From a virus: DNA of 39,674 nt. Position numbers and translations under genes: made by a program. Numbering within the stretch: position 1 is the first letter of the stretch; every line of letters starts with the position of its first letter. The notes below the pieces were generated by a model. That model was not told the origin of the DNA. It did not search any database and saw only the letters and a list, made by a program, of their open reading frames with translations. Shown piece after piece: positions 2 to 34,892 of this stretch. The stretch lies in IMG/VR virus record IMGVR_UViG_3300009085_000445, positions 1 through 39,674 of that record; one strand, 5' to 3'.

Positions 2-367
2 AAAACAACCCATAAGGATTCCCATATGGGAAGCCATATGGAAAATAGAAATAGAAATAGAAATGAAAATATAATAAAGGGGATTATTAAGGGGGGTTTT
101 ACTAAACCAACAACAATTGAAGTGCGAGAGTATTGTAAAGAAAGAAATAATAAAATTAACGCGGAAGAATTCCACGACTTTTATGAATCCAAGGGGTGGA
201 TGATAGGAAAGAACAAAATGAAGGATTGGAAAGCCGCGATCCGCACATGGGAAAAGAAACAAGATAGTTATCCACAGGATATACACAGGTTATCCACAAC
301 TCCAACACAAAAAACAATATCACCAGAAGAAACAGATGCTTATTTGAGGTCCTTACATGAAAGTTAG
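2..367 (+). CDS. DUF1376-type phage replication protein, C-terminal part (5' end missing)
   Basis: The frame is open to the first base of the window, so the gene starts outside it; the first ATG (26) is probably internal. The N-terminal stretch is a low-complexity linker (SHMGSHMENRNRNRNEN), usual in phage replisome-organiser or DnaD/DUF1376 proteins. It is followed by a C-terminal block of the form KPTTIEVREYCKERNN, then FYESKGWMIGKNKMKDWKAAIRTWEK, a recognisable C-terminal signature of these proteins. The matching N-terminal DUF1376 domain sits at the opposite end of the window (39487 onward), in the same frame if the ends are joined, so both are probably halves of one gene. The role is inferred: replication initiation or helicase loading. 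The 3' end overlaps the next gene by 11 bases. Confidence 0.7.
   Translation, partial: KTTHKDSHMGSHMENRNRNRNENIIKGIIKGGFTKPTTIEVREYCKERNNKINAEEFHDFYESKGWMIGKNKMKDWKAAIRTWEKKQDSYPQDIHRLSTTPTQKTISPEETDAYLRSLHES
23..40. repeat. Near-identical terminal repeat, left copy
   Basis: CATATGGGAAGCCATATG differs at one base from CATATGGGATGCCATATG at 39654-39671. Both contain the palindrome CCCATATGGG with the preceding bases. Each lies very close to a window end. Confidence 0.7.
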
Positions 368-1043
368 TGTAATCGTACCAAATCACGGAAGGGATATCAG
401 CCAATTAAGGGCGTCAATACCAAAAGACGTTGAAGTTATTGAGATCAACCGGGGTCTTGAGCGAAGCGAACAGAGAAATATAGGCATTAAGTACGCTTCT
501 GGTGACTGTTTCTTATTCTTAGATTCAGACCAATCCATATCGTCCCGATTGATAGATGAGTGTATCGACCTTGTAAATCAAGGAGCGACAGCTGTTTATA
601 TACCAGAAATAATAATTGCCAAATCGTTCTTCGGAAAGATACGCGCTTTTGAGCGGACGTTCTACACCGGCACAGCAGTAGACGTACCGCGATTCATCCG
701 GAAAGACGCCTGCCCATTGTTTGACACAAAGCTCACAGGTCCTGAAGACGCCGATTGGGGGAACAGAATCGTTGGGAAAAAAGTTGTTTCAAAGAATCCC
801 CTATATCACCATGACGATATATCCTTCCGTGAATACTGCCGAAAGAAAATGTACTATTCAAAAAGCATGGCGTTGTACGCGGTACGATGGCGTAACGATC
901 CATGCCTAAACTTCAAATATCGATGTTGGACAATCTTCACCGAGAATGGAAAATGGAAGAAACTCCTTCAACATCCGATCTTAACTCTTGGAATTATATT
1001 TATTCTACTTGTAAGGGGGGTAATTTATGCCACTAAAGTGTAG
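357..1043 (+). CDS. Family 2 glycosyltransferase
   Basis: A GT-A fold glycosyltransferase of 228 residues. It opens with KVSVIVPNHGRD, has the metal-binding DSD at residues 56-58 after the strand CFLFL, and an acidic GPEDADWGNRI block at 129-137 that fits the catalytic/acceptor ED region of GT2 enzymes. A hydrophobic segment at about 204-225 could anchor it to the membrane. It overlaps the upstream replication gene by 11 bases and the next glycosyltransferase by 17, so the cassette looks translationally coupled. Donor sugar and acceptor cannot be read from the sequence. It is probably the first enzyme of a glycan-modifying cassette that runs to 5661. Confidence 0.85.
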   Translation: MKVSVIVPNHGRDISQLRASIPKDVEVIEINRGLERSEQRNIGIKYASGDCFLFLDSDQSISSRLIDECIDLVNQGATAVYIPEIIIAKSFFGKIRAFERTFYTGTAVDVPRFIRKDACPLFDTKLTGPEDADWGNRIVGKKVVSKNPLYHHDDISFREYCRKKMYYSKSMALYAVRWRNDPCLNFKYRCWTIFTENGKWKKLLQHPILTLGIIFILLVRGVIYATKV

Positions 1044-1938
1044 CGTTGTCATCCCAACATATAATATGGGACATCTTATCTTAGAAACAATAGAACACTG
1101 CCTAAAACAAACATATCCAAACATGGAAATCATCGTGTATGACGACTGCTCAACAGACAACACAATTAACATATTAAAGCCTTTAGTAAAAACCAATATT
1201 ATAAAATATTATCGTGGGGTGAGGAACATAGGCGTAGGAGAAGCATTTAACCGGGGAATGTCCGCAGTCACAGGGGATTTTATCGTTATGCTATGCGCCG
1301 ATGACCTATTCACTAACGATCGTGTTATAACAGACATAGCAAGTATATTTAGATTAAACGATAAAGTTGGATACATAACGCGGTGGTATTACCAATTCAC
1401 AAAAGACTATAAACAGCCGGTACGCGCATGGCGGTCTACCGATCCGGTGCTACTTGCTAACAACCCATCAGGGCTAGCATTCCGCAGGAAAGCGATCACC
1501 GGAAAGAAATGTATCAACGAGATGTTTGTAGAAACAAGCCATCTAGCACATCACGTTTTAATGGATGGGTGGGATTATAGAATCATGCAATGGGACACAA
1601 TAGCAGTCCGCGTACACGACTCAACATCAACACAAAGACTCTACTGGAAAAAAAGGTTTCTATCAAGCCCGGTAGCCCAATGGCGCAAGTTAGGCGTGAC
1701 AGAAGTCCAGAAAGACTACGTGTCATTCATACAGATAAAGAACGGATACAACACTAAAGCGACATGGATGGAAATAAAGAATTTTATAAAGTTCAGACCA
1801 ATAAACCTTTTTCACCCGGCGTTCTGGTTCTATGCGGTCATCGCGCTACTAACACCAAGAAGGATATTGGTAAAGTTACCAAAGATATACAGGAAATACT
1901 TAGGAAAACATTTTGTAAAGGCAATCAAACGACCATGA
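1027..1938 (+). CDS. Family 2 glycosyltransferase (tandem paralog A)
   Basis: A 303-residue GT2 enzyme. N-terminal SVVIPTYNMG, nucleotide-sugar pocket YDDCSTDNT at 38-46 and metal-binding ADD at 91-93 within LCADDLF are all visible. The C-terminal quarter carries a hydrophobic FWFYAVIALL segment followed by basic residues, consistent with membrane association. It shares a series of blocks with the next gene (NPSGxxFR, a VRxH block, a Pro-Arg-rich C-terminal segment), so the two are tandem paralogs. ATG at 1027 follows AAGGGGGG. The stop codon overlaps the next start in an ATGA (1935-1938). The substrate is unknown. Confidence 0.88.
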   Translation: MPLKCSVVIPTYNMGHLILETIEHCLKQTYPNMEIIVYDDCSTDNTINILKPLVKTNIIKYYRGVRNIGVGEAFNRGMSAVTGDFIVMLCADDLFTNDRVITDIASIFRLNDKVGYITRWYYQFTKDYKQPVRAWRSTDPVLLANNPSGLAFRRKAITGKKCINEMFVETSHLAHHVLMDGWDYRIMQWDTIAVRVHDSTSTQRLYWKKRFLSSPVAQWRKLGVTEVQKDYVSFIQIKNGYNTKATWMEIKNFIKFRPINLFHPAFWFYAVIALLTPRRILVKLPKIYRKYLGKHFVKAIKRP

Positions 1939-2828
1939 TAACAATAGCGATCCCCGCATACAATCAAGAAGACATTATCGAAGAATCGATCGCCAGTTGC
2001 CAATGGCAAAATTATACCGATAAAGAAATCCTCGTTGTAGATGACTGCTCAACGGATAAGACAGCCGAAAAATGCTGTGAATGGAAAGGTGTAAGGGTCA
2101 TAAAGAACAAAGCCAATGTAGGATTTGCAAAGAACCTAGAGTTATGTAAGAAAAACGCCAAAGGCGATATTATTGTATACCTCTGCGGTGATGATATGTT
2201 CGCTCATCCTAACGTCATCGGTGATATTGCGGAAATATTTGAAGCAAATCCAGACGTTGGGATAGTCGACAGAAACTATTTTCAATACATGGACGGATAT
2301 GCGGGAGCGGTCGTTGAAGTCAGGGAACGCAACGTTATCATATCATCCGTCAATCCATCAGGTATGGGGTTCAGGAAAAGCATGATGAAAGAATTCTCAA
2401 ATAAGATTTATGTCGAAGTTCCAACAATGGTTAAAGAAATGATAAAGTATTGCCGGTGGGTCAAACTGGAATATGACACAGTCGCTGTCCGCATCCATAA
2501 AAAAAATCAAGCGGTCTCACCGGCATACTACAAAGGCTCACTTATCCAAAACTGGCATGACCTTCTTGGGTCAAATAAAGTCTTATGGGATTTTAAATCC
2601 AATTACATATGTTTAAAAAACAGATCAGGGTTGAGAAACCTTCTTCGAGAGATTAAGATTAATATAGATGTTGAGCCGGACATATTATTCTCGCTTTTAT
2701 TCTACTTCTACGCCATAATTGCCATCATGACGCCACGATGGATATTGATACCGCTATCTGATTTTTATAGGCATAGGATATCCAGAAGATTCTGTTCAAT
2801 CCAATGGAGAAAAGATGAAGATAATTAA
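1935..2828 (+). CDS. Family 2 glycosyltransferase (tandem paralog B)
   Basis: 297 residues from the ATG at 1935, chosen because it overlaps the upstream stop as ATGA and gives the standard GT2 start MITIAIPAYNQED. An earlier in-frame ATG at 1764 would lie deep inside the upstream gene. VVDDCSTDKT at 34-43 and GDD at 85-87 are the nucleotide and metal sites. NPSGMGFRKS, YDTVAVRIH and FYFYAIIAIMTPRWIL parallel the upstream protein, so this is a duplicated and diverged enzyme, perhaps adding successive sugars. It overlaps the following methyltransferase gene by 14 bases. Confidence 0.88.
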   Translation: MITIAIPAYNQEDIIEESIASCQWQNYTDKEILVVDDCSTDKTAEKCCEWKGVRVIKNKANVGFAKNLELCKKNAKGDIIVYLCGDDMFAHPNVIGDIAEIFEANPDVGIVDRNYFQYMDGYAGAVVEVRERNVIISSVNPSGMGFRKSMMKEFSNKIYVEVPTMVKEMIKYCRWVKLEYDTVAVRIHKKNQAVSPAYYKGSLIQNWHDLLGSNKVLWDFKSNYICLKNRSGLRNLLREIKINIDVEPDILFSLLFYFYAIIAIMTPRWILIPLSDFYRHRISRRFCSIQWRKDEDN

Positions 2829-3378
2829 TCTAGGGTGTGGAAACAACCCGATGGAAGGATGTATAAACATAGACGTCTTCCCCTACCCGACAGTAGACAA
2901 AGTCATGGATTTATCGAAATACCAATGGGACTTTGCCAACGAATCTATCGATGGGATATACGCCTCTCACGTTATTGAGCATCTAAAAGACCAAGAAATG
3001 TTTATCAAAGAATGCTATCGGATTCTAAAGCCGGGAGGATTCTTAAGGTTAAACCTCCCACATTCATCTTGTGCCGCGTGCATCGGGTGTATGGGACACT
3101 ACCGGACATACTCCTATGGAACAATGACGGCGTATCTATCTAATGATTTTTATATGTTTGGTACAAAGAAATTTAAAACCATAGAACAACGCCTCAACTG
3201 GTGGTACGAGAAAGGCGATCAAGCAGGATTAGTTCCGAAACCTATCCTATTAATTATAAAAATAATGAATCCAATAATAAATTGGGTAGCAAACCTAAAC
3301 CCACAAATATGTGAAAACTTCTGGTGTTTCTGGGTCGGCGGATTCCGCGAGGTGATATGGAAAGGCATCAAAATATGA
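2815..3378 (+). CDS. Class I SAM-dependent methyltransferase
   Basis: 187 residues with the methyltransferase_11-type layout: motif I INLGCGNNP at residues 4-12, an acidic INIDVFP strand end at 18-24, DGIYASHVIEHL as motif IV and LKPGGFLRLNLPHSS as the post-motif strand. The short C-terminus is Trp-rich. Methyltransferases of this shape are common in LPS and exopolysaccharide clusters, where they methylate glycans or sugar precursors. The setting between glycosyltransferases and a radical SAM gene supports the same idea, but the substrate is inferred. The start overlaps the previous gene by 14 bases, and the stop forms ATGA with the next start. Confidence 0.85.
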   Translation: MKIINLGCGNNPMEGCINIDVFPYPTVDKVMDLSKYQWDFANESIDGIYASHVIEHLKDQEMFIKECYRILKPGGFLRLNLPHSSCAACIGCMGHYRTYSYGTMTAYLSNDFYMFGTKKFKTIEQRLNWWYEKGDQAGLVPKPILLIIKIMNPIINWVANLNPQICENFWCFWVGGFREVIWKGIKI

Positions 3379-4358
3379 GGATTTTATACCTCCCGCACGC
3401 CTACAGCCAACAAAGGCAAACACAGAAACGCGCCAAGATATATCCTATTCTCCTAGCGATGCAGGCAGGGTGGTATCGAAAGCAAGGACATGAAGTCTAT
3501 TGGGACATGATACCAAACGTCAAGGTGGATAAGGTGGTACAAGAGCCGGAGGATATAGCCTTCTTAGACCTTCCGCACCCGGATAGAATTTTCACGCGGT
3601 GGTGGGAATACCAAAACAATGGAAACTTTAAATACTATCCTGCCACTTACATATTATCCGCGACCGGGTGTTGGCATGGGAAATGTACCTTCTGCGTTGA
3701 AAATGGCAAGCCATACATCAAGCGTCCGGTGGACGATGTTATCTCTGAGCTTGCGGAAATACACAAACTCAGGTTCAAGGAGGTCTTTGATGACAGCGCG
3801 ACGTTCCCGGATGGCGACTGGCTGAAAGAGTTCTGTATCAAAAAGATAGAAAACAAGGAAACAAAAGATTTAATAATAGGGTGTAACATGAGGATCGGTG
3901 CAGACACAAACTTCATATTCATGAAGAAAGCCGGGTTCAGGATGCTATTGTTCGGCATAGAATCCGCGAACCAACACACATTGGATAAAATCCAGAAAGG
4001 AATCTCAGTATATGACATCATACCAACACTTCAGCAGGCGAAAAAGGCGGGTCTTGATCCACATATTGCGGTCATGTTTGGGTATCGTTGGGAGGAAAAT
4101 CAAGACTCAGAGCGAACACTCGAACTTGTCCATCACCTTCTCAAAAAGGGATACGCAAAAACTGCTCAAGCATCTTTCCTATGCTCTCCATGCGAAGAAT
4201 CGGCAGAAGAAGGAAGAAAATTCATACGAAAAATCTACGACGTCGCGTCTAGTCCACAGTTCTGGGCAACAAAGGGTAAAGAACTAAAATCCCTGAGAGA
4301 TATATTATATTTATTCAAACAAATAAAGACTGGAATCAAAGAGAGGTTTTATGCTTGA
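3375..4358 (+). CDS. Radical SAM protein with a CX4CX2C cluster motif
   Basis: 327 residues from the ATG at 3375, which overlaps the upstream stop as ATGA; a start at 3324 would be buried in the methyltransferase gene. The iron-sulfur motif is GCWHGKCTFC with Cys99, Cys104 and Cys107, so the spacing is CX4CX2C rather than the usual CX3CX2C. The N-terminal 85 residues begin MRILYLPHAY and include AGWYRKQGHEVYWD, resembling a shortened B12-binding (Rossmann) domain. IGCNMRIGAD and LLFGIESANQHTLDKIQKG are typical later motifs of B12-type radical SAM proteins. It probably makes a radical-based change to a sugar or lipid in the cassette pathway; the reaction is unknown. It overlaps the next gene by 8 bases. 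Confidence 0.85.
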   Translation: MRILYLPHAYSQQRQTQKRAKIYPILLAMQAGWYRKQGHEVYWDMIPNVKVDKVVQEPEDIAFLDLPHPDRIFTRWWEYQNNGNFKYYPATYILSATGCWHGKCTFCVENGKPYIKRPVDDVISELAEIHKLRFKEVFDDSATFPDGDWLKEFCIKKIENKETKDLIIGCNMRIGADTNFIFMKKAGFRMLLFGIESANQHTLDKIQKGISVYDIIPTLQQAKKAGLDPHIAVMFGYRWEENQDSERTLELVHHLLKKGYAKTAQASFLCSPCEESAEEGRKFIRKIYDVASSPQFWATKGKELKSLRDILYLFKQIKTGIKERFYA

Positions 4359-5661
4359 AAGAATAAGTTTTATACTACTTATCAACATAATATTTTTCGC
4401 GAAGTCCTTGTGTTATAAATATTCAAGCGATGACATCCCTGTCTTCCAAGCATCTCAAAAACTAAAATACACCGGATGGAAGAAACGATATCATCAACTG
4501 ATCGCCACGATCCGCGTGAAACCGCAGGAAGACCACGCGATCACGACATTCCTTCACGCGATAACAAGCGCATTGATATACACAGCCTTCGGGGCAAACG
4601 ACATATCATTTACAGCCGCGCTACTATTCAGCTTCAACCCAATCCACAACCAAGGAAGCGTCTGGATATCCGGCAGGGGGTACGTCATCCCGACGCTGTT
4701 ATTGCTTCTAACCATAACATGTCCTTACCTATCGCCACTAACGATATTCGCGATGATGTACTTCAACATAGGATATGTCGCATCGATAATTCTAGTATTC
4801 ATCAATCCCTTATATTTAATATTGATAATAATTGCCGGATTAATTCATTACAAAAGAATAAAAGAAAACATAAAACAAAAATTCTATGTCGAATCCTTCG
4901 CGGAGGACAGGAAAATAAAGATATCAAAGCTCATCATTGCCATCAAGACATTCGGATTTTACATAACGCACGCGATAATACCTATCAAGACAACATTCTA
5001 TCATTCATATATGCAAAGCATGGCAGGAGCAGGCAAAGAGCGATCATATAAGGAGGACAGGTTTTTCGTCATAGGATACATCGCCATTCTTGGGATATTA
5101 ATAAATTTAATTTACGTCGGATGGAATACCCAAACACTAGGTCTAGTCTGGTGGTGTATAGGAATCCTGCCTTTCTTAAATCTATACAGAATATCGCAGG
5201 AGATCGCTGAAAGGTACACCTATCTGCCACTAGCCGGGCTGATGGTGGCATTCGCCACGATAATACATGGGCATCCGGTGATCATCGCAAGCGTGATCGC
5301 GGTATACGCGACAAAGATGTGGTTCTACATGGACTGCTACCAAGACGACTATTATTTAAGCGAGTACGCGTGCTTATACAGCCCAGACGCATGGTTCTCG
5401 TGGCACGTCCGCGCGTTGCGCCGGTGGGAAGTAAAGTCTTACAACGAAGCGATCATCTTCTGGACAATGGCAAAGATGATAAGCCCAAAAGAATTCAAGA
5501 TATTATTTAATCTAGCAACGATCCTAAAGATATGCAAGTTAGACAAGGAAGCCGAGCAATACTTAAACGAAGCAATGAAAAACGTGCCAGAAGGGCAGGA
5601 AGCATACTCAAATAACCTTTTTAAAAACTGGAAGAAAGGCGAATTAGCGGTATTAATATAG
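4351..5661 (+). CDS. Multi-pass GT-C/TMTC-like membrane protein with C-terminal TPR-like helices
   Basis: 436 residues with many hydrophobic segments through residue 310 or so and a soluble helical C-terminus. An acidic pair near the N-terminus (YSSDDIPVF, Asp27-Asp28) sits where GT-C enzymes carry their first-loop catalytic acids. The block FNPIHNQGSVWISGRGY closely resembles the HPIHxExVxWISGRxD signature of TMTC/DUF1736 proteins. The last 90 residues (YNEAIIFWTMAKMISPKEFK, then LNLAT-like and EAEQYLNEAM repeats) look like two tetratricopeptide units. This suggests a lipid-linked-sugar-dependent transferase at the membrane. It starts inside the radical SAM gene with GAGAGG upstream and ends the coupled cassette. 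The family call is from motifs only. Confidence 0.68.
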   Translation: MLERISFILLINIIFFAKSLCYKYSSDDIPVFQASQKLKYTGWKKRYHQLIATIRVKPQEDHAITTFLHAITSALIYTAFGANDISFTAALLFSFNPIHNQGSVWISGRGYVIPTLLLLLTITCPYLSPLTIFAMMYFNIGYVASIILVFINPLYLILIIIAGLIHYKRIKENIKQKFYVESFAEDRKIKISKLIIAIKTFGFYITHAIIPIKTTFYHSYMQSMAGAGKERSYKEDRFFVIGYIAILGILINLIYVGWNTQTLGLVWWCIGILPFLNLYRISQEIAERYTYLPLAGLMVAFATIIHGHPVIIASVIAVYATKMWFYMDCYQDDYYLSEYACLYSPDAWFSWHVRALRRWEVKSYNEAIIFWTMAKMISPKEFKILFNLATILKICKLDKEAEQYLNEAMKNVPEGQEAYSNNLFKNWKKGELAVLI

Positions 5662-17060: not shown

Positions 17061-18434
17061 ATGAAATATTATCCGCATAGATTAATAAAAGGAGTTGCAG
17101 CGACTATTCCATTTCAATTATCGACTGGAGATACGACTCCTACTAATAACTCTAATATGTATTCAGTAGCGTGCAGTTCTAATGGAAGCGTAGTAATAGT
17201 CGCAACAGATGTTTGCGTTTGTATATCAACAGACTATGGTCTTAAATATCGTCCAAGACTTCCAAGGGTAAATGCTTATGCAAGTTATTCTTCTGTCGCT
17301 TGTGATTCTGATGGAAGCTTTTTTATTGTCGCTGAAACTAGTGGTAGATTATATACCTCTTCAGACAGCGGAGTTACTTGGACTGAAAGACAACCCTCCG
17401 GAAACGTAGATAAAGCTTGGGTATCAGTTTCTTGTGATTCAGATGGAAGTAATCTCATAGCAGCAGTAAACTCAGGAAGATTATACACATCTGCAGATAG
17501 TGGAGTCAACTGGACAGAACGTCAGCCGGGAGGAGATGCAGATTTGGCTTGGAGAGATGTTGCATCTGATGATGATGGAAGCAATTTAATAGTTTGTGTT
17601 TATGGAGGAAGGCTATACACTTCAAGTGATAGTGGAGTCAACTGGACGGAATGTCAGCCGGTTGGAGATGCAAACGCAAATTGGGCTTGTGTTGCTTCAG
17701 ACTCTGATGGAAGTAATTTATTCGCCTGTATATACGCTGCAAGAAGCTGGATGTCTACAGATAGTGGAGCAAACTGGACAGTAACCACAGTACATGGAAC
17801 AAATAACCTGAACTATACAGATGTAGCAATAGACTCAGACGGAAGTCATATTACAGTTTGCGCTTCTTCAAACAATTTTTATTATTCGTCAAACAGTGGA
17901 AGCAGTTACACCGTAAACAACTTATCTCCTAGTCAATCAAACACAAAAACGTGTATAAATTCTGATGGAACTTATTGTTACGTTGTTGTTTCTGGGAATG
18001 GAATTAAAGTAGGAATATCTTATGCAGGATTTACACAATATCAACCTCAAAAACAAGCTATCGCGATTTACCAAGATGGAGTGTTATTTGGAGTTTCTAC
18101 GAATGAACTGGCAAACGTAATTTCAGACATATACACTCTTCTTTTAACAGCAAGCGAAACAGATGCAAACAGTATTATTCTTGTTAATATTACGACTGCC
18201 TTAAATTCATATAATAGGTTATACATAGAAACTGTTTCTCAAGAACTTTCATCTGCTCCAACATTAACAAGCTCTATTTATGAAAAGATTACAGCGATAT
18301 TTCAGTATCTTTTCTTCAAGAGAACAGTTACAGCTACAACGGAAACTTTATTTAAAAATGACTCTTCTACTTCTTTAGGTACAGCAACGATATCAGATGA
18401 TTCTACAACAGTGACAAAAACAAAGGTCAGTTGA
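17061..18434 (+). CDS. Asp-box (BNR-like) beta-propeller tail protein
   Basis: 457 residues. Asp boxes of the form SxDxGxxW occur at about residues 100-107, 144-151, 188-195 and 232-239, with degenerate ones near 55 and 277. The spacing is 44 residues, and each repeat contains xSDGSNLIVxVxxGRLYTS, giving a six-bladed-looking propeller as in sialidases and YCF48-like proteins. The C-terminal 100 residues (IYEKITAIFQYLFFKRTVTA, then a strand-rich ending) resemble the attachment domain of phage baseplate proteins. It is probably a receptor-binding or glycan-binding tail protein. No catalytic residues for a sialidase can be named. Blades are similar at DNA level. Confidence 0.75.
   Translation: MKYYPHRLIKGVAATIPFQLSTGDTTPTNNSNMYSVACSSNGSVVIVATDVCVCISTDYGLKYRPRLPRVNAYASYSSVACDSDGSFFIVAETSGRLYTSSDSGVTWTERQPSGNVDKAWVSVSCDSDGSNLIAAVNSGRLYTSADSGVNWTERQPGGDADLAWRDVASDDDGSNLIVCVYGGRLYTSSDSGVNWTECQPVGDANANWACVASDSDGSNLFACIYAARSWMSTDSGANWTVTTVHGTNNLNYTDVAIDSDGSHITVCASSNNFYYSSNSGSSYTVNNLSPSQSNTKTCINSDGTYCYVVVSGNGIKVGISYAGFTQYQPQKQAIAIYQDGVLFGVSTNELANVISDIYTLLLTASETDANSIILVNITTALNSYNRLYIETVSQELSSAPTLTSSIYEKITAIFQYLFFKRTVTATTETLFKNDSSTSLGTATISDDSTTVTKTKVS
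17358..17753 (+). repeat. 132-base tandem propeller repeats
   Basis: Three direct copies of a 132-base unit encode the best-conserved blades. Two copies share nearly identical stretches around GATAGTGGAGTCAACTGGAC (near 17499 and 17631). Recent duplication or gene conversion is likely. Confidence 0.7.
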
Positions 18435-24044: not shown

Positions 24045-26339
24045 ATGAAAGTTGATACCATTCAGACATCGTTTGTTGGTGGCGAATTCGCGCCATCGTT
24101 ATTCGGAAGGACAGACATCGCTCAATACGCTAACGCTTGTGCTGAATTGGAGAACTTTCTCATCCGTCCTTATGGAACAATCATCTCCACCCCGGGGACA
24201 GAGTATATAAACGAATGTAAAACCGGCGGTACGACAGGGATATCTCGGCTGATTTCTTTTATCTTCTCACGAACAGACTCCTATGTCATAGAATTTGGCG
24301 TCGGGTACTTCCGTTTCTATACGGATGGATCGCTTGTTGTATCGCCGGGGACAACTCCTTACGAAGTAGCGCATACATATACTGCCGAAGAACTATTTGA
24401 TGTACAATATTGCCAAATAAACGATATTATCTTCCTATCGCATCCAAACCACAGGATTCAGAAACTTATCCGTACTGCCGCATCAAGTTGGACATTAGAA
24501 GACTTCGACTTTAAGGGAGGTCCATTCCTAGATGACAACACCAACACATCAATAACCATCAATCCTGATGGCGTAACAGGGACAATCGGGCTTACAGTAT
24601 CTCCAACGAACTCAAACATATTTACTGTATCCGGCTCAACAATGGGACATAATAACACCTATTGGAAGATCGGAAGCACGACAACCGATGCGACAACAGG
24701 GCTAGATGTGCAAGGATATGTCAAAATAACGAATGTCGTCAACTCATACACCGCGACAGCTAGCGTTATGAAGCTGTTAAGCGCATCCGGAGCAACAAGC
24801 AATTGGGCAGAAGGCGCGTGGAGCGATGTCAGAGGATACCCTGCAAGGGTGACGTTCCATCAACAAAGGATAGCGCTAGCAAGAACAAACTATCAACCGC
24901 AGAACGTATGGCTATCAAAATCATTTGAGTTTGACAACTTCGCTGTAGACACCGGATATGATGACAACGCGTTAAACCTTCAACTGGCAAGCAACGAATC
25001 TAACGACATCAAATGGCTTGCATCCGGGCAATCGCTTATAGCCGGTACATACGGAGGCGAGTTTGTCATAAAATCAGCAGACAATGGCGTCCTCACCCCA
25101 TCAAACGTTAATGTTCAAAAAGAAACGTCTTGGGGATCAGAACCTATTATTCCTAAAAAGATAGGAAACTTTTTCTATTATGTCCAGAGGTTCGGAAGAA
25201 AGCTAAGGGAACTATTCTACCTATGGGATTTAGATACCTACAAATCCGTAGATAAGACAATTCTATCACCGCACATCACCGGTGATGGCATCAAAGATAT
25301 GACATACCAACAGAATCCAGATACCATCTTATGGTGTGTACTGACAGGAGGCACGATCGCAACGCTCACGCGTGAAGTTGATCAGGAAGTCCAAGGATGG
25401 GCTAGGCAGACAACAGATGGTCTATATGAATCAATCGTGACTATACCATCAAGGGACACACCGCATGACGAAGTCTGGGTTATTGTGAATAGGACAATAA
25501 ACTCCACCACCAAAAGATATGTTGAAAGGTTCAAGAGCATGGAATTGCCAGATAGGCAAGACCAATGTTTTTATATACATAGCGGACTGTCTTACGACGC
25601 ATATTCATCAACAGTATCGCCAACATCAACAAGTTTAAGCCTAGTAACGACAGCAGGAACAAGCATCATTGTGACATCTTCTGCCGCATACTTCTCAGCA
25701 AACGACGTAGGTCAAAGAATCCGCGCAATAGATGCGGATGGAAACACAGTCGGGGAACTAAAGATTGTCAATTACTCACAAAGCACGATCGTATTAGCAG
25801 ATATCATCTACACTTTTGACGCATTAACCTATGCCGCAGGGTCATGGGGTTTATCCGTAGAGCAAATAAGTGGGCTAGACCATCTTGAAGGCAAGACTGT
25901 TATTGTCCTCGCTGATGGAGGGACAGATAAGCCAAACAAAGTTGTATCAAACGGAACAATAACATTAAGCTATAACTACTTTGTCGTGAATGTAGGTCTT
26001 CCGTATAGCCAAACAATGAAGACTATGCCGCAAGAAGCCGGGTCGCAAAGAGGCACATCACAAGGAAAAATCCAAAGGATCAACCAAGTAGGCTTCAAGG
26101 TAAACAGATCGTTTAAAGGATTCTTATGCGGTGGTGAAACCAAGTATCTAGATAAAATCGTGTTCCGCGATCCAACAACATTAATGGGAACGCCGGAACT
26201 GTTATACACAGGGACAATACCAAACATATCCTTTAGAGATGACTATAAATATGGGTCACAAGTTTTGATAAGAAACGATGAACCATTGCCTATAGAATTA
26301 TTAAGTTTAATGACATCAATCGACACAAACGACAAATAG
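24045..26339 (+). CDS. Tail hub / tail tubular protein B-like (T7 gp12-type)
   Basis: 764 residues after AATAGGAGAATAT. TSFVGGEFAPSLFGRTDIAQ, then NACAELENFLIRPYGTIISTPGTEYI, is the recognised start of the podovirus tail hub family in Bordetella-phage-like genomes. DDNALNLQLASNESNDIKWL and EFVIKSADNGVLTPSNV blocks are also typical, and the C-terminus (LCGGETKYLDKIVFRDPTTL) is beta-rich. It builds the tail tube end that contacts the host. C-rich codon use resumes here after the AT-rich island 16869-24036. Confidence 0.82.
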   Translation: MKVDTIQTSFVGGEFAPSLFGRTDIAQYANACAELENFLIRPYGTIISTPGTEYINECKTGGTTGISRLISFIFSRTDSYVIEFGVGYFRFYTDGSLVVSPGTTPYEVAHTYTAEELFDVQYCQINDIIFLSHPNHRIQKLIRTAASSWTLEDFDFKGGPFLDDNTNTSITINPDGVTGTIGLTVSPTNSNIFTVSGSTMGHNNTYWKIGSTTTDATTGLDVQGYVKITNVVNSYTATASVMKLLSASGATSNWAEGAWSDVRGYPARVTFHQQRIALARTNYQPQNVWLSKSFEFDNFAVDTGYDDNALNLQLASNESNDIKWLASGQSLIAGTYGGEFVIKSADNGVLTPSNVNVQKETSWGSEPIIPKKIGNFFYYVQRFGRKLRELFYLWDLDTYKSVDKTILSPHITGDGIKDMTYQQNPDTILWCVLTGGTIATLTREVDQEVQGWARQTTDGLYESIVTIPSRDTPHDEVWVIVNRTINSTTKRYVERFKSMELPDRQDQCFYIHSGLSYDAYSSTVSPTSTSLSLVTTAGTSIIVTSSAAYFSANDVGQRIRAIDADGNTVGELKIVNYSQSTIVLADIIYTFDALTYAAGSWGLSVEQISGLDHLEGKTVIVLADGGTDKPNKVVSNGTITLSYNYFVVNVGLPYSQTMKTMPQEAGSQRGTSQGKIQRINQVGFKVNRSFKGFLCGGETKYLDKIVFRDPTTLMGTPELLYTGTIPNISFRDDYKYGSQVLIRNDEPLPIELLSLMTSIDTNDK

Positions 26340-26349
26340 GAGTACGACT

Positions 26350-26919
26350 ATGGGTACAGGTGGATTACTACTTGCATATTCTGCGGTCAATGCAATATCT
26401 CAAGTACAAGAAGGATATGCTCAAAAGGCAGAAGCTAACCTGAACGCCACGATCGTGGAGGGTAAATCCGGGCTTGTTCAGGTGCAGAAAGAAACCGAGT
26501 ATGAGCAATATCAAAGGTTAAAAGGCAAGACAGGCGCAACGTCAATGGCAAGTATAGCCGGCATGGGGATCATGCCTTCAGGTAGCGCAATGGCTGTCAT
26601 GCTAGACACGCAGAAACAGATAGCCCTAGACCAATCAATAGGGCAGTTTAACTACGAAATGGAGAAACGTTCTATCATGGCAGAAGCAGAAGCTATACGT
26701 AGGCAAGGCAGGGCGGCAGCCCGGTCAGGATGGTCAAACGCGTTCTCAACGATGTTATCCGGAGTAAGCAACTACGCTATGTACAAAGGATGGGGAACAG
26801 CTAAACCAGATATGGGTGGCGGTGGGATAAGCCAATATGGAAACTCATATGGTGCAAATACGCCAAAAAGCACATTCGATATGGGATCATACAGCGCAAT
26901 AAGAGCCGGGAGGATATAA
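26350..26919 (+). CDS. Internal virion protein, T7 gp14-like
   Basis: 189 residues behind AATAGGAGTACGACT. A membrane-like N-terminus (GGLLLAYSAVNAISQVQEGY), then Ala/Gln-rich helices, MASIAGMGIMPSGSAMAVMLD and AEAIRRQGRAAARSGWSNAFST, follow the pattern of gp14-like proteins (YxxxxxxAQ repeats, a GV/MxxSGSAxxV motif, then RxAR). The C-terminus is Gly-rich. It is probably ejected into the cell envelope as part of the DNA channel. Confidence 0.75.
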   Translation: MGTGGLLLAYSAVNAISQVQEGYAQKAEANLNATIVEGKSGLVQVQKETEYEQYQRLKGKTGATSMASIAGMGIMPSGSAMAVMLDTQKQIALDQSIGQFNYEMEKRSIMAEAEAIRRQGRAAARSGWSNAFSTMLSGVSNYAMYKGWGTAKPDMGGGGISQYGNSYGANTPKSTFDMGSYSAIRAGRI

Positions 26920-26920
26920 A

Positions 26921-28357
26921 ATGTCACCTAGAATTCCAACATACGATTCGCAGAAAAACTTTACAGCGCAGACACAACAACCTCTCCGGGATGAAGTAAA
27001 GCAGTCATTCCAAGACCAACAAAAGGTATTTGGCACAATGCAGGATATCGTACAGAAATGGAGCGACGCCAACGATGTCATGCAGTACACGGAAGCAAAG
27101 GCTAAGTATGAAACAAAAACAGCCGATATTTTATCACGATCAACAGTCGACCCTGATTATAAAGACACAGCAAAATATTATAAAGAATTAGAAGACGCAA
27201 GAATAGACAGCACAAAAGGAATATCAAACAACCAAGTCAAGAATAAGCTTATGATAGAAATGGGGTATGGCAACCAGATGACAGCAATAAAGATAGACAC
27301 CATATCCAAGAAGAAACAGATAGATCATAACCAATACGTCCTAGATGAAGCGCTTGACGCGATGGCAAAGAAGTTAATAGAAGCATCCACACCAACAGAA
27401 GCGATACAAATATCAACTGAAATAGACGACCTAATAACATATAACGTGAAATCCGGCGTTATAAGTGAGGCTGAAGGAAAGAAGAAGCGAGAACAAATCG
27501 AAAAAGCCGCAGTCCAGTACGCAATAAATATTAATCCGGATGAAGCAGAAAAGATGTTAGCGCAAGGAAAATTCCAACATTTATCACCTGATGATAGGGT
27601 GAACTTCTTAAAGATTGTTGAGGCAAAGAAAGCCCAGAATCATGCAGAATTACAAAGACTATATGCTGAGAGCAAGAAAGCCACAGAGGATGCACTACAA
27701 GAGAAGCTGTATATGGAAACGCTAACGATAAATGACCTAGACAACGCTTTAAGCGTTCCTGAAGCTGAGGGTGGCGCAGACCGAAGCATTCTATCTACCA
27801 TGAAAAAGAAGCTATATGATACACAGCAAGAAAAAATAGTAAACTACATAGGAATAAAATATCCTGAATCTCTTGAATATGTCAATCTTATCGACAAGGC
27901 GTTAGATAAAGAATCGGACTTAATTAGATCAAGGCAGATATTGATAGATGCGTATAAAGATGGTAAGATCACAAAAGAAGAAGCTGTCGTTCTTGATAAA
28001 ATAAAAGATATCGCAACAAGTATTGAAATAAAGAAAGCCCTTCCCATAGAAAAACAATGGATACAGGCAGGATCGGCATTAAAAAGATTTAAAGAGTTAA
28101 GGAAGAACCTATACATATCAGACAAGTCCGTTGAAGAACAAGCGCAGGACTTAAGAGAATATCTGACATTATTGTCATCTCAGCAAGATGAGCCGAATAA
28201 AATTTTAGATAACATTATTAAGAAGCGCCAAGATTCAAATTACCCACAATACATGGGATACGAAAAAGGAAATACTTACAGCACAATTCTCGGTTCATTT
28301 GATCTCTTAGGGAGAGATGAAGACGGAATGCCAATCGTAAGGATGCTCAATGAATAA
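26921..28357 (+). CDS. Internal virion protein, T7 gp15-like position
   Basis: 478 residues after GGGAGGATATAA. Almost entirely helical and charged, with long coiled-coil stretches (NDVMQYTEAKAKYETKTADI and many Lys/Glu/Gln heptads) and a Tyr/Gly-rich end. Its place between the gp14-like and giant ejection-type proteins, and its size, suggest the gp15-like member of the ejection complex. Not recognised by motif. It overlaps the giant gene by 8 bases. Confidence 0.6.
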   Translation: MSPRIPTYDSQKNFTAQTQQPLRDEVKQSFQDQQKVFGTMQDIVQKWSDANDVMQYTEAKAKYETKTADILSRSTVDPDYKDTAKYYKELEDARIDSTKGISNNQVKNKLMIEMGYGNQMTAIKIDTISKKKQIDHNQYVLDEALDAMAKKLIEASTPTEAIQISTEIDDLITYNVKSGVISEAEGKKKREQIEKAAVQYAININPDEAEKMLAQGKFQHLSPDDRVNFLKIVEAKKAQNHAELQRLYAESKKATEDALQEKLYMETLTINDLDNALSVPEAEGGADRSILSTMKKKLYDTQQEKIVNYIGIKYPESLEYVNLIDKALDKESDLIRSRQILIDAYKDGKITKEEAVVLDKIKDIATSIEIKKALPIEKQWIQAGSALKRFKELRKNLYISDKSVEEQAQDLREYLTLLSSQQDEPNKILDNIIKKRQDSNYPQYMGYEKGNTYSTILGSFDLLGRDEDGMPIVRMLNE

Positions 28358-31300
28358 TATGCTTATACCAACAGAAGGGCGTCTTGACCAGATGAACTAT
28401 TCATCTGTAGAAGACCAATACCAAGAACTAATGGACGATGACCATCCAAAGACCGGTCGACTAGACGATTTGGAAACGCTCAAAAGCCCATTAACAACGC
28501 CTTTTATAGATAAGCTACTTACCACAATATCTGGTAAGATGACGCTTGGAGAATCTTTAAACATTAAATCAATCCTCGATGTAAAACCAGAAGATATCGG
28601 CAAGGCATTCAACTTCATATCAAAACAACTATCGCCTTTATCGCCACTTGGATGGCTAGATATCGAAGGATGGGAATCAACAGCAAAACTTGCTGAAGCA
28701 GGTATGCGCGAAGGATCACGTATTCCAAAAGCGATCCAGACAGGAATATTCCCAAGGGAAGGAAAGACACGACTTGAATCCGCGTTCTATGGATTTCTTA
28801 TGCCGGACGAAATTCCTTCCGGATACATGGGCGGAGAGATAAGTAAACGTGTCAATCCAGACTTATGGGTAGCGTCTGGTATTGTTGGAGCAGTAGGCGA
28901 ACTTCTTACATACGAAATAGGGCTTGGAAACCTAGGACAACGACTTGTTGCGGGTTATAGAGCAAGTAGAATTCGAGGAGCAGATAAAGAATTAGGGTCT
29001 CTTGTGGATTACATGACAGAAAGACTTGTACCATTCATGGAAGGGAAAGGCGCTTATCCAAAAGAATGGACGATGGCAGATAAGATTGGAAGAACAAGAT
29101 TATCTATTATTCAAGAACTTGAACGTGTTCCTGCACTTGCGGATTATATGCTTTCTCGCCAAACTCCTACAAAGATATTGTTTAACAAAATGATCATGAA
29201 CAAACTAGGAACGCTGAAATTCCAACCAGAAAACGTTCCTTTAAAATCGAACCTAAAAGCTGTCGCTTTCTCTAAACTTCCGACATTAGTTAACGCAACA
29301 CAGGCAATCAACACATTAATGAACGCCTCTGGGCTGTCAAAAGACGAACTGGACTTCTCCGGAGTCATAGAATATCTCAAAGGAAAGAAAGGTAAAGTAT
29401 CGCGCGACGAGATAGTCGATTATATCGAGAAGAATAAAGTAAAGATAAATCCTATTATTCTATCTTCAGAAGGATACAAAGAATACGGATTTGATGACCT
29501 AGAAGTAAAGAAGATACGTGGTAGCACAGGAAAGACAGCATGGGAAGTATACATAAAAGGGCAGGAATCTGATACTCCAATATATGTCTCAACAACATCA
29601 CCGAATGCGTCAGGAGCAAAGTATGAAGCAATCGGTGCAGGAGCAACAAAGATAGGAGGAGGAGCAAAGTATCACACATATACTGTTCCGGGAGAAGCAA
29701 GCAACTATCAAGAAACACTTATTCAGCTTCCAGGGACGTTTAAACAAAAACAATTTAAAGTAATACAGCAACCTAATGGATTATTCAATATAAAGAATCC
29801 TCATGGTGGACTTGTCTACATAGAGAATATGGCTCTAAAGACAAAAGAAGAAGCACAGGAAGCACTTGAGCAGATGAAGATAGGATATGAAGAACATGAA
29901 GGAAAATATCCAATAGAAGGATTCCAGTCTCCACATTTTGATGAGCCGGGAATTGTTGTTCATCATAGGTCAGACCAAAGAGTAGATAGCAAAGGAAAGA
30001 CAGGAACATTTGTTCATGAGATACAATCAGATTGGCATTTAGAGGGGAAGAAAAAAGGTTATGGATATAATGATCCTTATACCAATTTTAAAAAAGAGTT
30101 GATTAAAAAATATAAGACTCGCGATGAAGCTAAACTATTAAGCCTCATGACAAGTGAAGAAGATGCCAGATTGGATAGATTATCTCAAGAACCAACAGGA
30201 AACGTTCCAGACGTTCCATTTAAGAACACTTGGCATGAACTTGCGTTAAAGGACATCATACGTCAGGCTGTAGAACGAGGAGATAGTTTTGTTGCATTTG
30301 CAAGCGGTCAACAAGTGGCAGAATTATATGATCTAACAAAACAAATCGATAGTATTGAATACGCTAAGGCAAACTCTCCTGATCCAAATAGTAAAGAGCA
30401 ATGGTATTCTGTAAATGCAGTAAGATCAGGTCGTTCACTTTATGAAAAGACTCTCCCTGAAAGTCAACTTGAAAGCTTTGTAGGTAAGGATATAGCAAGA
30501 AAGATATTAGAAGAAAAAGGAACTGAATTTTATGTAGAAGGCATAGAGTCTGTGATGGAAGGGAAGTATCATCTTAATTGGAAAGAATTAAAAGGAGAAG
30601 ACTTAAAAATTGGCGGTGAGTGGGCAAAGAAATTCTACGACGACATTCTCATAAAGTCCACCGAGAAGTACATCAAAAAGTGGGGAGGAAAGATAGAGGA
30701 TATAGATATCCATGAGTATAAAAATATATATCCGAAAGGAACAGTTTATTTTGTATTTGATTCTGAAGGAGATACTGGAGAAATTACATCAAGAATGTTC
30801 GAAGATTATGATGAAGCTGTAAAGTTTAGAGATGATAATCCGGGATATATGATACAAACTGTTCCAGAAACAGGAAAGAAAGTAAAATTTAAGAAGACTT
30901 CCAAGATGATTAAGAATAAAGGATTTTACTTAACTCCTTACATGATAAAAGAAGTCAAAGAAATAGGTCAACCTATGTTCGGATCACGTCTAGCAGGAGG
31001 TCTTGAGAAGCTGTTAGAAGAAAAAGGGACAGCCGGAATCGAAGGCAACGAACCGATCCCAGACGATTGGGATGCAGAACCTATTCCAGAAATAATAAAA
31101 GATTTACCAACAGGCGAAATAACTAAAGAGAATATAGATACGTATGTCATGCAACAACTGTTTATGAATGAGAGGGAGTATCTGGAAGATTCTATTATTA
31201 AAGGCAAATCTATAAAAGAGATCGCCAAGAAGAACAACGAAACAATTGAAGAAACACAGAAAGAAATCGAGTGGGCGAAGAAACATTATCAAGAGATCGT

Positions 31301-34300
31301 TGAGGAAGAAGACATAAAGATGCGGGAAGAATTCGGCAAAGAAGAAGCCGAGAAGATGGCAAAAGATAAGAAGAAGCTAAGAGATTACCTGAAAGGAAAA
31401 ATAAGAAATAACCTCCAAAATCAAGGGGAATTCGCTAATGTTAAAGAATTAAAATGGCTATTCGCAAAGCCAGAGGAACGCGGATTCACGCCAGATGAGT
31501 TAGTAACGGAGATGAGTGGAATCGGATTAGGAGAACTCCAAGAAGGCGACGATTTAATCCCATATATTGAAAAGGTTTTTAGTGGTGAAATTAAAGACAA
31601 GATCACAGAAAAATATGTAAAAGAAGAAAAACAGCGCGTCAGTAAGAATATAAGAGATATGAAGAAATCTTTCGGCAAAAAACCGAAAGTAAAACCGGAA
31701 AAGAAGCCGGAGGTAATGGTAGGGCGTGGGACAGTATTGAGCGATAAAGGCGATATAGATAAAGGACTGCAAATAGAAATCATGCAGAAGATGCCTTTCT
31801 CCTTGCTAGGAAATAAAGCGGAAGTATTAAGCCGATTATCAACTAATCTGAAAACTGAGATTAAGAAGGGCGTTGAGAAAGTTTTTGATTTATTCGGCGG
31901 AGCAAAAGGTTACCGCGCAGGATTATTTGATAAAACAGCATCTTCTAAATATGCCTTGAACGAATATAGCGATGAAAGGTTCAACTACTACTCAAACATC
32001 AAAGACCCTGACAAGCTAAAGACAATGAAGAAAACAGTTGCTGACTTAAGGCAAGGTCTTATTGACCGGATCGCAAAAGCCTTCGAGATACCAACCAACA
32101 AATACTCCCCTGAAGAACTCAGGAAAGCGCTGAATAAATGGTTACAGCGAGGCATGGAGAAAGACAGGGCGACATTCGCAAGAGAGATCATCCAGAAGTA
32201 CGGAGAAGAAGTCTTAGCAGAGGCGGTCAAAGACAACTTTGCATCCCCAGAATCATCCGCCGCATACTACTTCCTTCAAAACACATCAGTATTCGGTCTA
32301 TCCAATCAAGGCGACAAATACAAATGGTCACAAGGCGTCATCCGCACCAAAGGCGATAAAGCCGAAATCCGGGACAATATGCGAAGAATTGAAGAAGTCG
32401 ACAAGCAGATGGACATGGAGCATGAAAGAGATAAGAATATGCCGGTCACGCAGAAAGACGCGTGGGAAGTCATGGATGAAATCACGCAAGACATCTTTGC
32501 CGGGAAGGTTAATCCAGATGAGATCGTTGTTCTTGTTGACCCCCAATACCTGAACCCAACAGCCGAGTCCGGAACATACAGCGTTGGACAAAAAGATACA
32601 ACATGGGAAGGACATAGAGAAAACCTAGAACAACATTTACTGCCATTAATCCAGACAGGCGCAAAAGTAATCTATACCAACAACTACGATAAAAACCTAG
32701 TAAAATGGCTTAAACAAAATAAACTGCCTTACAATGTAGAGGAATCAATCGGAGCAACAGCGAATCGAGGAGGACGTGATGAAATCATTTCGCTCATCAA
32801 CTACAATCTACCCAAAGAATACACTCGCCGAGTCGGCGCTGATACTGACGGAGATCAGTACGCCGGAGAAGAAATCACCGGAGAAAGTGAAACCTTCCAA
32901 AAATGGCTCGAAGAACGAAAACGTCTTGAGAAAGAAGGACTGATAAAACCACCTTCTTTTGGTAAAGACTGGACGCCAGACCAACGCAGGGAGATATACC
33001 GGCTAGCCTTAAGAAAAGGTCTTATATGGACAGACGTGGACAAAAAAGTCCATGACAAACTTCATCCACTATTAAGATATTATAAAGGAGCGACATTCGA
33101 CCAAGTCAAAACCTACATCGAAGCGCTAACAGGCGACAAAGATAATCCTCCAAAAGTATACAAGCTCACAGGAGATATAGATAAAGATAAAGACGCGATC
33201 CAAATCATCGCTGATGAAAGCAAGCATTGGAAAGACATAAACGCAGTAGAAGTCAATACCCTTGACCCGGTCAGGATTATTGAGAAAGTAACAGGGCAAC
33301 CTATATGGGAAACAAACTCTCTAGCCGACAATACAATCAACCTCATAATATCGTCTGACGCAGAGATGTTTGACAGGAAGGTCGAAGAACTAAACATCCT
33401 TGATGCGAACAGAGAAGGCGTCTTCGCGAACAGTAAAGAAAGCGCGGAGATCATGCGTAAGTTTGAAGCAAAAGAACCTCTAACGCCAAAAGAACAAAGG
33501 ATCGTCGACTTCCTACGATCTAGGTATGACGCGTTAATAAATGAAGCCAACGAAATGCGAGAATCACTAGGAAGAAAACCTATCCCTTATCGCCAAGACT
33601 ACATGGCGCATATGGAAGAACAAAACCTTTTATCTGAATTTTTCCATGGAAACCCAACGCCGGTAGCTAAGATATCAAGAGAACAGCTAAACGCCATCAG
33701 GATGGGCGACTACACAAAAGGCAATATGCCTTTCAATAGATTCGCATTGCAAAGAAAAGGAACTAAAACAAAGTACGATGCGATAGGAAACTATGTAACA
33801 TATCTAAACACTTTATTGAAAGAAATCTACTACACCCCGGCGATAACGCACGCAAGGAAGTTTATACAATACGCCATGGAAAGGCAACCTAACGCATATA
33901 AATCGCTTGACAGACTATTGAACGACCTAAAAGGAAAACCTTCTGTCGCAGACCAGAACGTGATAGGCGCATTCGCAAGTTGGAAACCTATCAAGTGGCT
34001 ACGATCACAGATGGCAAGAAGCGCATTAGTCGGAAACGTAAACTTCTGGGCAATGAACCTATCTAACGTAACAATATCATATGACGAACTCGGATGGTAT
34101 CTCAATGAAGGCATGAGCAAGTTTTTAGGGGACAAAGCATGGCGTGACTTCGCATTCCAGAACTCAAAGATGCTGAAAGGTCGCGCTATCGACCCGGACT
34201 TCTTAGACAAACCAATCCCAAATAAAATGGAAGAAGCCGTTGCTTCCATAACAAACATAATAGAATATAATAACGTAGGTAGCACGTTTGTCGGCGCATA

Positions 34301-34892
34301 CATAAAAGGCATCGAAGTATTCGGCTTCTCTGACGAACAGGCTATCGCGTATGCCGACGATATCGCGAGAAGAACACAAGTCGGATATAAGCCTTACGAA
34401 GTAAACGCATGGATGCGGTCTAATGCAGGAAAGCTATACAGCCAATACCAGACATGGGCATTCAACGCTATGAATCATATCCTTTATGATTTAGGTGTCG
34501 CAAATGTCCCTGAAGATATCGCCAGTATGTTCACAGATACAAAGACAAACCGAGCAAGATGGGGATCGTTCTTAGCGCTTTTAGGCGTTGCTATAATAAC
34601 AAACGCAATATATAGAGCATTCGGTCTAAGAGAACCATATGACATAAAATCTGCTATTCCATCTGTCGCCGGCATGGGATCAGGCAAATACAGCGACATA
34701 GGTCCTGCAAGAATAGCAAAAGATATTAGCACAATCATAACAGCAAAGAAGAAAGAAACAAAAATAAGAGCCGCACAGCGAGTTGCCGGAGCATTCGTTC
34801 CCGGCGGAACGCAAGCGGTAAGGTTCTTACAAGGTAAGGTCTTCCCTGAGAGCGAAGCTTCCAAGAAGAAGAAAAAAATAATAATAAAATAG
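28350..34892 (+). CDS. Giant ejection-type virion protein with embedded D12 DNA adenine methyltransferase
   Basis: 2180 residues. A block at about 525-690 (SPHFDEPGIVVHH, EIQSDWH at 557-563, VPFKNTWHELALKDIIRQAV) marks a domain common in phage polyvalent virion proteins. Residues about 1148-1475 carry the full D12/Dam-type order: SLLGNKAEVL (motif X, from 1151), VFDLFGGAKG (motif I, 1178-1187), LNEYSDERFNYYSNIKD (from 1203), AAYYFLQNTSVFGL, and DPQY at 1397-1400 where DPPY is usual, then KVIYTNNYDKNLVKWL. The C-terminal 330 residues (RSALVGNVNFWAMNLSN, one membrane helix at 2071-2092) resemble T7 gp16-type ejection proteins. It may methylate incoming DNA. The Gln in the catalytic motif makes activity uncertain. 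Confidence 0.78.
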   Translation: MNNMLIPTEGRLDQMNYSSVEDQYQELMDDDHPKTGRLDDLETLKSPLTTPFIDKLLTTISGKMTLGESLNIKSILDVKPEDIGKAFNFISKQLSPLSPLGWLDIEGWESTAKLAEAGMREGSRIPKAIQTGIFPREGKTRLESAFYGFLMPDEIPSGYMGGEISKRVNPDLWVASGIVGAVGELLTYEIGLGNLGQRLVAGYRASRIRGADKELGSLVDYMTERLVPFMEGKGAYPKEWTMADKIGRTRLSIIQELERVPALADYMLSRQTPTKILFNKMIMNKLGTLKFQPENVPLKSNLKAVAFSKLPTLVNATQAINTLMNASGLSKDELDFSGVIEYLKGKKGKVSRDEIVDYIEKNKVKINPIILSSEGYKEYGFDDLEVKKIRGSTGKTAWEVYIKGQESDTPIYVSTTSPNASGAKYEAIGAGATKIGGGAKYHTYTVPGEASNYQETLIQLPGTFKQKQFKVIQQPNGLFNIKNPHGGLVYIENMALKTKEEAQEALEQMKIGYEEHEGKYPIEGFQSPHFDEPGIVVHHRSDQRVDSKGKTGTFVHEIQSDWHLEGKKKGYGYNDPYTNFKKELIKKYKTRDEAKLLSLMTSEEDARLDRLSQEPTGNVPDVPFKNTWHELALKDIIRQAVERGDSFVAFASGQQVAELYDLTKQIDSIEYAKANSPDPNSKEQWYSVNAVRSGRSLYEKTLPESQLESFVGKDIARKILEEKGTEFYVEGIESVMEGKYHLNWKELKGEDLKIGGEWAKKFYDDILIKSTEKYIKKWGGKIEDIDIHEYKNIYPKGTVYFVFDSEGDTGEITSRMFEDYDEAVKFRDDNPGYMIQTVPETGKKVKFKKTSKMIKNKGFYLTPYMIKEVKEIGQPMFGSRLAGGLEKLLEEKGTAGIEGNEPIPDDWDAEPIPEIIKDLPTGEITKENIDTYVMQQLFMNEREYLEDSIIKGKSIKEIAKKNNETIEETQKEIEWAKKHYQEIVEEEDIKMREEFGKEEAEKMAKDKKKLRDYLKGKIRNNLQNQGEFANVKELKWLFAKPEERGFTPDELVTEMSGIGLGELQEGDDLIPYIEKVFSGEIKDKITEKYVKEEKQRVSKNIRDMKKSFGKKPKVKPEKKPEVMVGRGTVLSDKGDIDKGLQIEIMQKMPFSLLGNKAEVLSRLSTNLKTEIKKGVEKVFDLFGGAKGYRAGLFDKTASSKYALNEYSDERFNYYSNIKDPDKLKTMKKTVADLRQGLIDRIAKAFEIPTNKYSPEELRKALNKWLQRGMEKDRATFAREIIQKYGEEVLAEAVKDNFASPESSAAYYFLQNTSVFGLSNQGDKYKWSQGVIRTKGDKAEIRDNMRRIEEVDKQMDMEHERDKNMPVTQKDAWEVMDEITQDIFAGKVNPDEIVVLVDPQYLNPTAESGTYSVGQKDTTWEGHRENLEQHLLPLIQTGAKVIYTNNYDKNLVKWLKQNKLPYNVEESIGATANRGGRDEIISLINYNLPKEYTRRVGADTDGDQYAGEEITGESETFQKWLEERKRLEKEGLIKPPSFGKDWTPDQRREIYRLALRKGLIWTDVDKKVHDKLHPLLRYYKGATFDQVKTYIEALTGDKDNPPKVYKLTGDIDKDKDAIQIIADESKHWKDINAVEVNTLDPVRIIEKVTGQPIWETNSLADNTINLIISSDAEMFDRKVEELNILDANREGVFANSKESAEIMRKFEAKEPLTPKEQRIVDFLRSRYDALINEANEMRESLGRKPIPYRQDYMAHMEEQNLLSEFFHGNPTPVAKISREQLNAIRMGDYTKGNMPFNRFALQRKGTKTKYDAIGNYVTYLNTLLKEIYYTPAITHARKFIQYAMERQPNAYKSLDRLLNDLKGKPSVADQNVIGAFASWKPIKWLRSQMARSALVGNVNFWAMNLSNVTISYDELGWYLNEGMSKFLGDKAWRDFAFQNSKMLKGRAIDPDFLDKPIPNKMEEAVASITNIIEYNNVGSTFVGAYIKGIEVFGFSDEQAIAYADDIARRTQVGYKPYEVNAWMRSNAGKLYSQYQTWAFNAMNHILYDLGVANVPEDIASMFTDTKTNRARWGSFLALLGVAIITNAIYRAFGLREPYDIKSAIPSVAGMGSGKYSDIGPARIAKDISTIITAKKKETKIRAAQRVAGAFVPGGTQAVRFLQGKVFPESEASKKKKKIIIK

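Follow-up and report, generated by a model that had tools for sequence, protein, structure and literature searches.

The locus analysed here lies nearest to four described systems: the DarB protein of P1, which is a myophage, the D12/Dam DNA adenine methyltransferases (PF02086; T4 Dam, E. coli Dam and DpnM), the ejection protein gp16 of T7 and the methyltransferase M.HhaII. The methylases of phage polyvalent proteins are mostly gamma-class and helicase-linked (Iyer et al., PMC5512222), and a text search of this 2017 polyvalent-protein paper found no mention of D12. DarB is the precedent for an ejected giant methylase protein (PMC5512222, PMC12810830), and the Dar proteins of P1 are, by one report, ejected together with the DNA (PMC12810830); methylation as their mode of protection is unsettled, physical obstruction being cited as a hypothesis in a review (PMC12707154). 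A review of ejection proteins makes no mention of methylation (PMC8954989). M.HhaII is an active GANTC adenine methyltransferase (PMC12707154, PMC10359602), whose motif IV was reported as DPQY (PMC4190342).

The window, that is the whole stretch of 39,674 nucleotides of viral DNA that was analysed, encodes a protein that resembles DarB and the polyvalent methylase-helicases in being a phage protein of giant size that contains a DNA adenine methyltransferase domain and should be ejected together with the phage DNA. The analogy to DarB drawn in the initial annotation is one of functional likeness only; DarB-type proteins mostly carry a gamma-class, EcoKI/TaqI-like methylase with an NPP(Y/F) motif (NPPY in DarB), LPD36 and an SF2 helicase (PMC5512222), whereas the domain of the window is assigned to the alpha-class D12 type, and Pfam gave neither a helicase nor an LPD match in the giant protein.

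Giant gene and its late neighbourhood

The giant gene (28350..34892; it lies, like its three upstream neighbours given below, on the plus strand of the window) is a single open frame of 2180 amino acids with an ATG start and no internal stops, the opposite strand carrying many stops over the same interval, and its start overlaps the preceding gene by 8 nt. The genes of the window are of the T7-like late type, including terminase, portal, major head protein, tail proteins and a gp14-type protein. Upstream of the giant gene lie, in order, a tail protein gene at the T7 gp12 position (24045..26339; phrog_376, tail protein, E 1.5e-183), the gene of a T7 gp14-type internal virion protein (26350..26919; phrog_418, E 2.6e-17; T7_gp14 at E 4e-4, below the cut-off) and that of a 478-aa protein with no family match, placed at gp15 by position only (26921..28357). 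Following the gp14-type and gp15-position genes, the giant polyvalent-type protein takes the position of T7 gp16, which it also resembles in its large size, and the same gene layout is seen in the relatives. Yet no sequence homology to gp16 was detectable in it by PHROG, Pfam or PDB; of the gp16-like flank and ejection type proposed in the initial annotation, it is the gene position downstream of a gp14-type protein that stands, and not a gp16 domain.

The methyltransferase domain was found in eight contigs, representing seven distinct domain sequences, and in each it is part of a giant late protein whose gene takes the T7 gp16 position. These are the window, L002 (same contig as L004), L005-L008 and L011 from IMG/VR scans and, from the second of two scans of genome contigs (the first had yielded none), L032, in which the domain has the same sequence as in L007. 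Beyond these eight, contig L031 breaks off within the domain. By PHROGs, a gp14-type gene lies upstream of the giant gene in the window, L008, L011 and L032, and no gp14-type protein was found in L002, while the neighbourhood of L005, L006 and L007 was judged from gene layout only.

The giant protein is modular. Residues about 331-787 (29340..30710) match the giant protein of Dolichospermum phage Dfl-JY45 (tblastn E 1e-27), which carries four ART-PolyVal stretches, in agreement with the polyvalent flank proposed earlier. This N-terminal module is not conserved in L002 or L006; a RadC/JAB N-terminal module is found in one of the six aligned giant proteins (L006, by sequence), and that of L011 has an M15 peptidase in its N-terminal part, a peptidoglycan-type peptidase where T7 gp16 has its transglycosylase, which fits an envelope-crossing protein. 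N-terminal modules are exchanged between relatives while the methyltransferase domain stays. This combination of disparate domains, the swapping of modules (RadC/JAB, M15 peptidase and the ART-PolyVal-linked module) and the late gene position beside virion protein genes are the traits of a polyvalent protein. Upstream of the methyltransferase domain, residues 935-990 (31152..31319) form a weak, sigma-region-4-like helix-turn-helix (HTH_38 E 0.064; sigma-factor PHROG E 0.024), and the relatives give similarly weak helix-turn-helix or sigma-factor matches, all of them below curated cut-offs. The C-terminal region, residues 1488-2180 (32811..34889), belongs to no recognised family and shares 52% identity with L002 and 25% with L011.

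Two observations on other proteins may be added. A ParB-like module is suspected by eye in L002. A possible polyvalent cassette is present in L168 (MW202675.1, 765-10568), in the order head-tail connector, M15 peptidase with ART-PolyVal, a protein related to the N-terminal module of the window and an InPase-bearing protein annotated as a type I restriction enzyme.

D12/Dam-type domain and its unusual motif IV

As a single sequence, the protein of the window matched nothing relevant for the methyltransferase domain in Pfam, PHROGs or PDB; the Pfam D12 profile (PF02086) had no match in the window, and a profile search of PDB sequences with the domain returned chance matches only. By tblastn against phages, the window domain gave one match, a chance one to an ssRNA phage, while nine matches at E 2-3 came from the L005 domain, each to a sequence annotated as a DNA adenine methylase, and were taken as a lead only. 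The D12 assignment depends therefore on a family profile, made from the seven-row alignment of the domain relatives, which was compared by hhalign with a profile of twelve phage D12 enzymes. The two profiles aligned at 98% (E 2e-13, as a single comparison) with a score of 95.6 over 246 columns, against 25.6 for the best of 60 column shuffles and 14.8 for the reversed profile. This profile-profile comparison, with its shuffle control, excludes a chance origin of the D12 resemblance. When the whole giant proteins were aligned with the D12 profile, the match fell on the same segment. Residues 1148-1487 (31791..32810) are, as judged from the profiles, homologous to D12/Dam DNA adenine methyltransferases.

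PF02086 matches in G001, G386 and G388 were rejected, for they lie off the giant gene and their frames score as PF01555 N6/N4 methyltransferases; they are free-standing N6/N4-type enzymes of relatives (L003 for G001 and L039 for G388, the match in G388 covering the C-terminal part only). By eye, G001 also has an additional, MT-A70-like ORF with DPPW.

The hhalign alignment keeps the alpha-class motif order X-I-II-IV-V followed by the C-terminal motif, all in register, which bears out the ordered D12 motif set first read in the 2180-residue protein. Motif X (PFSLLGNK, residues 1149-1156, 31794..31817) is invariant at all but one position across the seven family rows, and its Lys1156 aligns with Lys11 of T4 Dam, a lysine nearly invariant among Dams. 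Motif I (VFDLFGGAKGYR, residues 1178-1189, 31881..31916) stands at the SAM-loop position, with DLFGGAKG as its core (residues 1180-1187); in this family it is without the usual GxG pattern, GGAKGYR being the family signature. Motif II (Asn1204-Glu1205, 31959..31964) aligns with ND of the Dams, the motif V region (YTNN, residues 1442-1445, 32673..32684) with their SN, and GRDE (residues 1475-1478, 32772..32783), invariant in the family alignment, with their C-terminal E motif. The SAM and catalytic positions, Lys1156, Glu1205, Asp1397, Pro1398 and Tyr1400, are retained across the family. The domain is thus like the D12/Dam enzymes in its motif order, predicted fold, motif X lysine, motif II acid and D-P-x-Y, and unlike them in its GGAKGYR, its DPQY, some 75 additional residues behind motif II, most of them helical, a similarity below Pfam detection and its embedding in a 2180-aa protein.

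With a two-sequence alignment AlphaFold gave no usable model (pLDDT 45.5), whereas an alignment of 21 rows, of which 7 came from the family and 14 from viral D12 enzymes, gave a domain pLDDT of 78.6 and a pTM of 0.80. Compared with PDB, this model reached a TM-score of up to 0.70, on E. coli Dam; 17 of the 19 matches at E<=0.001 were E. coli Dam, DpnM or T4 Dam, the other two being chains of 7m6b ('Mcbe1'), and several viral structure matches at the same level are annotated as adenine-specific methyltransferases. The model matches the Dam fold, and a domain lacking the Rossmann fold, the adverse outcome named in the initial annotation, was not what it predicted; because Dams were among the input rows, it is only partly independent evidence and supports a Dam-like fold without independently proving it.

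Motif IV (residues 1397-1400, 32538..32549) reads DPQY instead of DPPY, exactly at the Asp1397-Tyr1400 noted at the outset, and keeps three of the four positions. DPQY is invariant in all seven family rows and in the L032 prophage domain. Among 87 free-standing D12 enzymes, not all mutually independent, DPPY was found in 85 and DPQY in none: DPPY is present in all 12 phage enzymes, all 45 viral-contig sequences and 28 of 30 Omnitrophota loci, the exceptions being SPPY in L166 and L164, which is without such a motif in the stretch read. M.HhaII, known here from description, is like the window family in its reported DPQY and differs in being a free-standing restriction-modification enzyme rather than a domain of a giant protein. 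Since this active enzyme is reported to carry DPQY, the motif is compatible with catalysis and does not necessarily mark decay.

The domain gave dN/dS ratios of 0.038-0.085 (about 0.04-0.09) in four computable pairs, which are rough because of high synonymous change, and on these ratios it is under purifying selection. In all pairs compared, the domain is better conserved than the N-terminal part. Against the C-terminal part it comes out ahead in six pairs of seven, by a slim margin in L006/L008; in L005/L008 it is less conserved than both the C-terminal part and the helix-turn-helix region. Over 52-66% identity, the Asp, Pro and Tyr of motif IV, the motif X Lys and the acidic residue of motif II do not vary. 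L011 has lost about 10 residues from the hairpin that corresponds, in the alignment, to the target-recognition region of the Dams. Random drift to a dead remnant was rejected, as the low dN/dS and the motif invariance speak against it. Hence, of the variant enzyme, new specificity or remnant offered by the initial annotation, the last is opposed by purifying selection and the family-wide DPQY, and a variant is compatible with catalysis through the precedent of M.HhaII. From its sequence, the methyltransferase domain is probably an active variant adenine methyltransferase.

Possible role of the domain

We tentatively favour, at not quite an even chance, a modular polyvalent ejection protein that stands at the T7 gp16 position and contains an alpha-class D12/Dam SAM-dependent adenine methyltransferase acting on incoming DNA. 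The giant protein would be a virion component alongside the proteins of the gp14 and gp15 positions and would enter the cell at the start of infection, where the domain may methylate adenines of the phage DNA as it arrives, ahead of host restriction or at the same time. Points against activity at entry are the motif I without GxG, a motif IV unlike that of all other D12 enzymes examined, the hairpin loss in L011 and the gp16 homology not found. Moreover, given Dam turnover, an ejection protein present in a few copies may be too slow for 124 GATC sites, or a similar number of sites, at entry. A free-standing N6/N4 methyltransferase was above the Pfam cut-off in three of the six contigs searched, and the chief modification enzyme may therefore be a different one.

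Perhaps the methyltransferase is active late, in the producing cell, where it would be made in quantity before assembly and modify the progeny DNA ahead of packaging or in its course; through its place in an ejection protein, methylation would be tied to the capsid and not to entry. The late position of the giant gene beside tail and internal virion genes agrees with this, a late-made enzyme could reach replicated DNA, and phages are known to shield their progeny genomes with free-standing methyltransferases (PMC4190342). However, this would leave unexplained why every relative keeps the domain in a modular ejection protein even though some of them encode free-standing methyltransferases as well, and we regard late methylation as possible but unlikely.

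Methylation may also have been lost, leaving a module of the ejection machinery that binds or grips DNA like the cytoplasmic DNA-binding part of T7 gp16, whose gp16-C is described as DNA-binding (PMC8954989). The unusual motif I, the DPQY and the hairpin loss in L011 would suit such a module; yet a pure grip would need no SAM and catalytic positions, the motif IV, X and II residues named above are invariant over the whole identity range, and DPQY has an active precedent in M.HhaII, which makes the loss of methylation unlikely. That the domain methylates a target other than phage DNA, such as host DNA or RNA, altering host gene expression on entry, is very improbable, as its nearest profiles and structures are DNA adenine methyltransferases, even though polyvalent proteins often carry host-modifying enzymes (PMC5512222) and the motifs diverge from those of the Dams.

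Returning to methylation of the incoming DNA, it is conceivable, if doubtful, that a podovirus-like lineage with at least one apparent Omnitrophota prophage carries an alpha-class adenine methyltransferase in its particle and delivers it with the DNA, GGAKGYR and DPQY reflecting a distinct specificity or a cis-acting, low-specificity methylation at entry. If the domain is active, the anti-restriction functions that phages eject would gain a second, unrelated class of methyltransferase, here in a short-tailed phage and with no attached helicase, and whether a phage can mark its own DNA on entry would become testable.

Omnitrophota link and restriction-site counts

L032 (QZKA01000026.1; L034-L036) sits in a 109-kb contig of a Candidatus Omnitrophota metagenome-assembled genome (MAG), and its giant protein is equal in length to that of L007. 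Its flanks, with ORFs read by eye, hold cellular-looking genes on both sides; one end has a recombinase-like ORF, the opposite end tRNA genes. It is apparently a prophage in an Omnitrophota contig, seen in a single MAG, and a relative of the window phage rather than the window phage itself. No additional member turned up when 384 Omnitrophota genomes were searched with the family profile; D12 enzymes are present in 33 of 145 genomes of the phylum at E<=1e-10. A literature search, with subscription journals and preprints outside its scope, found no paper devoted to Omnitrophota phages. The family is small and conserved, has a non-canonical catalytic motif that is fixed in all its members and is linked to Omnitrophota through an apparent prophage.

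GATC is scarce in L005 (19 vs 50 expected in 17.2 kb) and L008 (23 vs 71 expected in 21.0 kb). Such scarcity would be surprising if the domains of these two gave GATC sites efficient protection. The window (1-39674) has no GGCC site, vs 71.6 expected by the Markov estimate and a mean of 78.3 in shuffles, while CCGG is about twofold enriched (165 vs 85 expected); GGCC counts are ordinary in the loci of the relatives and in the prophage and its host flanks. As GGCC holds no adenine, an adenine methyltransferase could not protect these sites. Site loss under restriction pressure is a natural reading of this absence, which may instead stem from a library or assembly bias.

Finally, elsewhere in the window, a block of glycosyltransferase-like ORFs and a radical-SAM-like ORF were seen by eye at 357-5661, a SAM methyltransferase (PF08241) is encoded at 2815-3378, and repeats at 132-base spacing lie within one ORF at 17272-17713.
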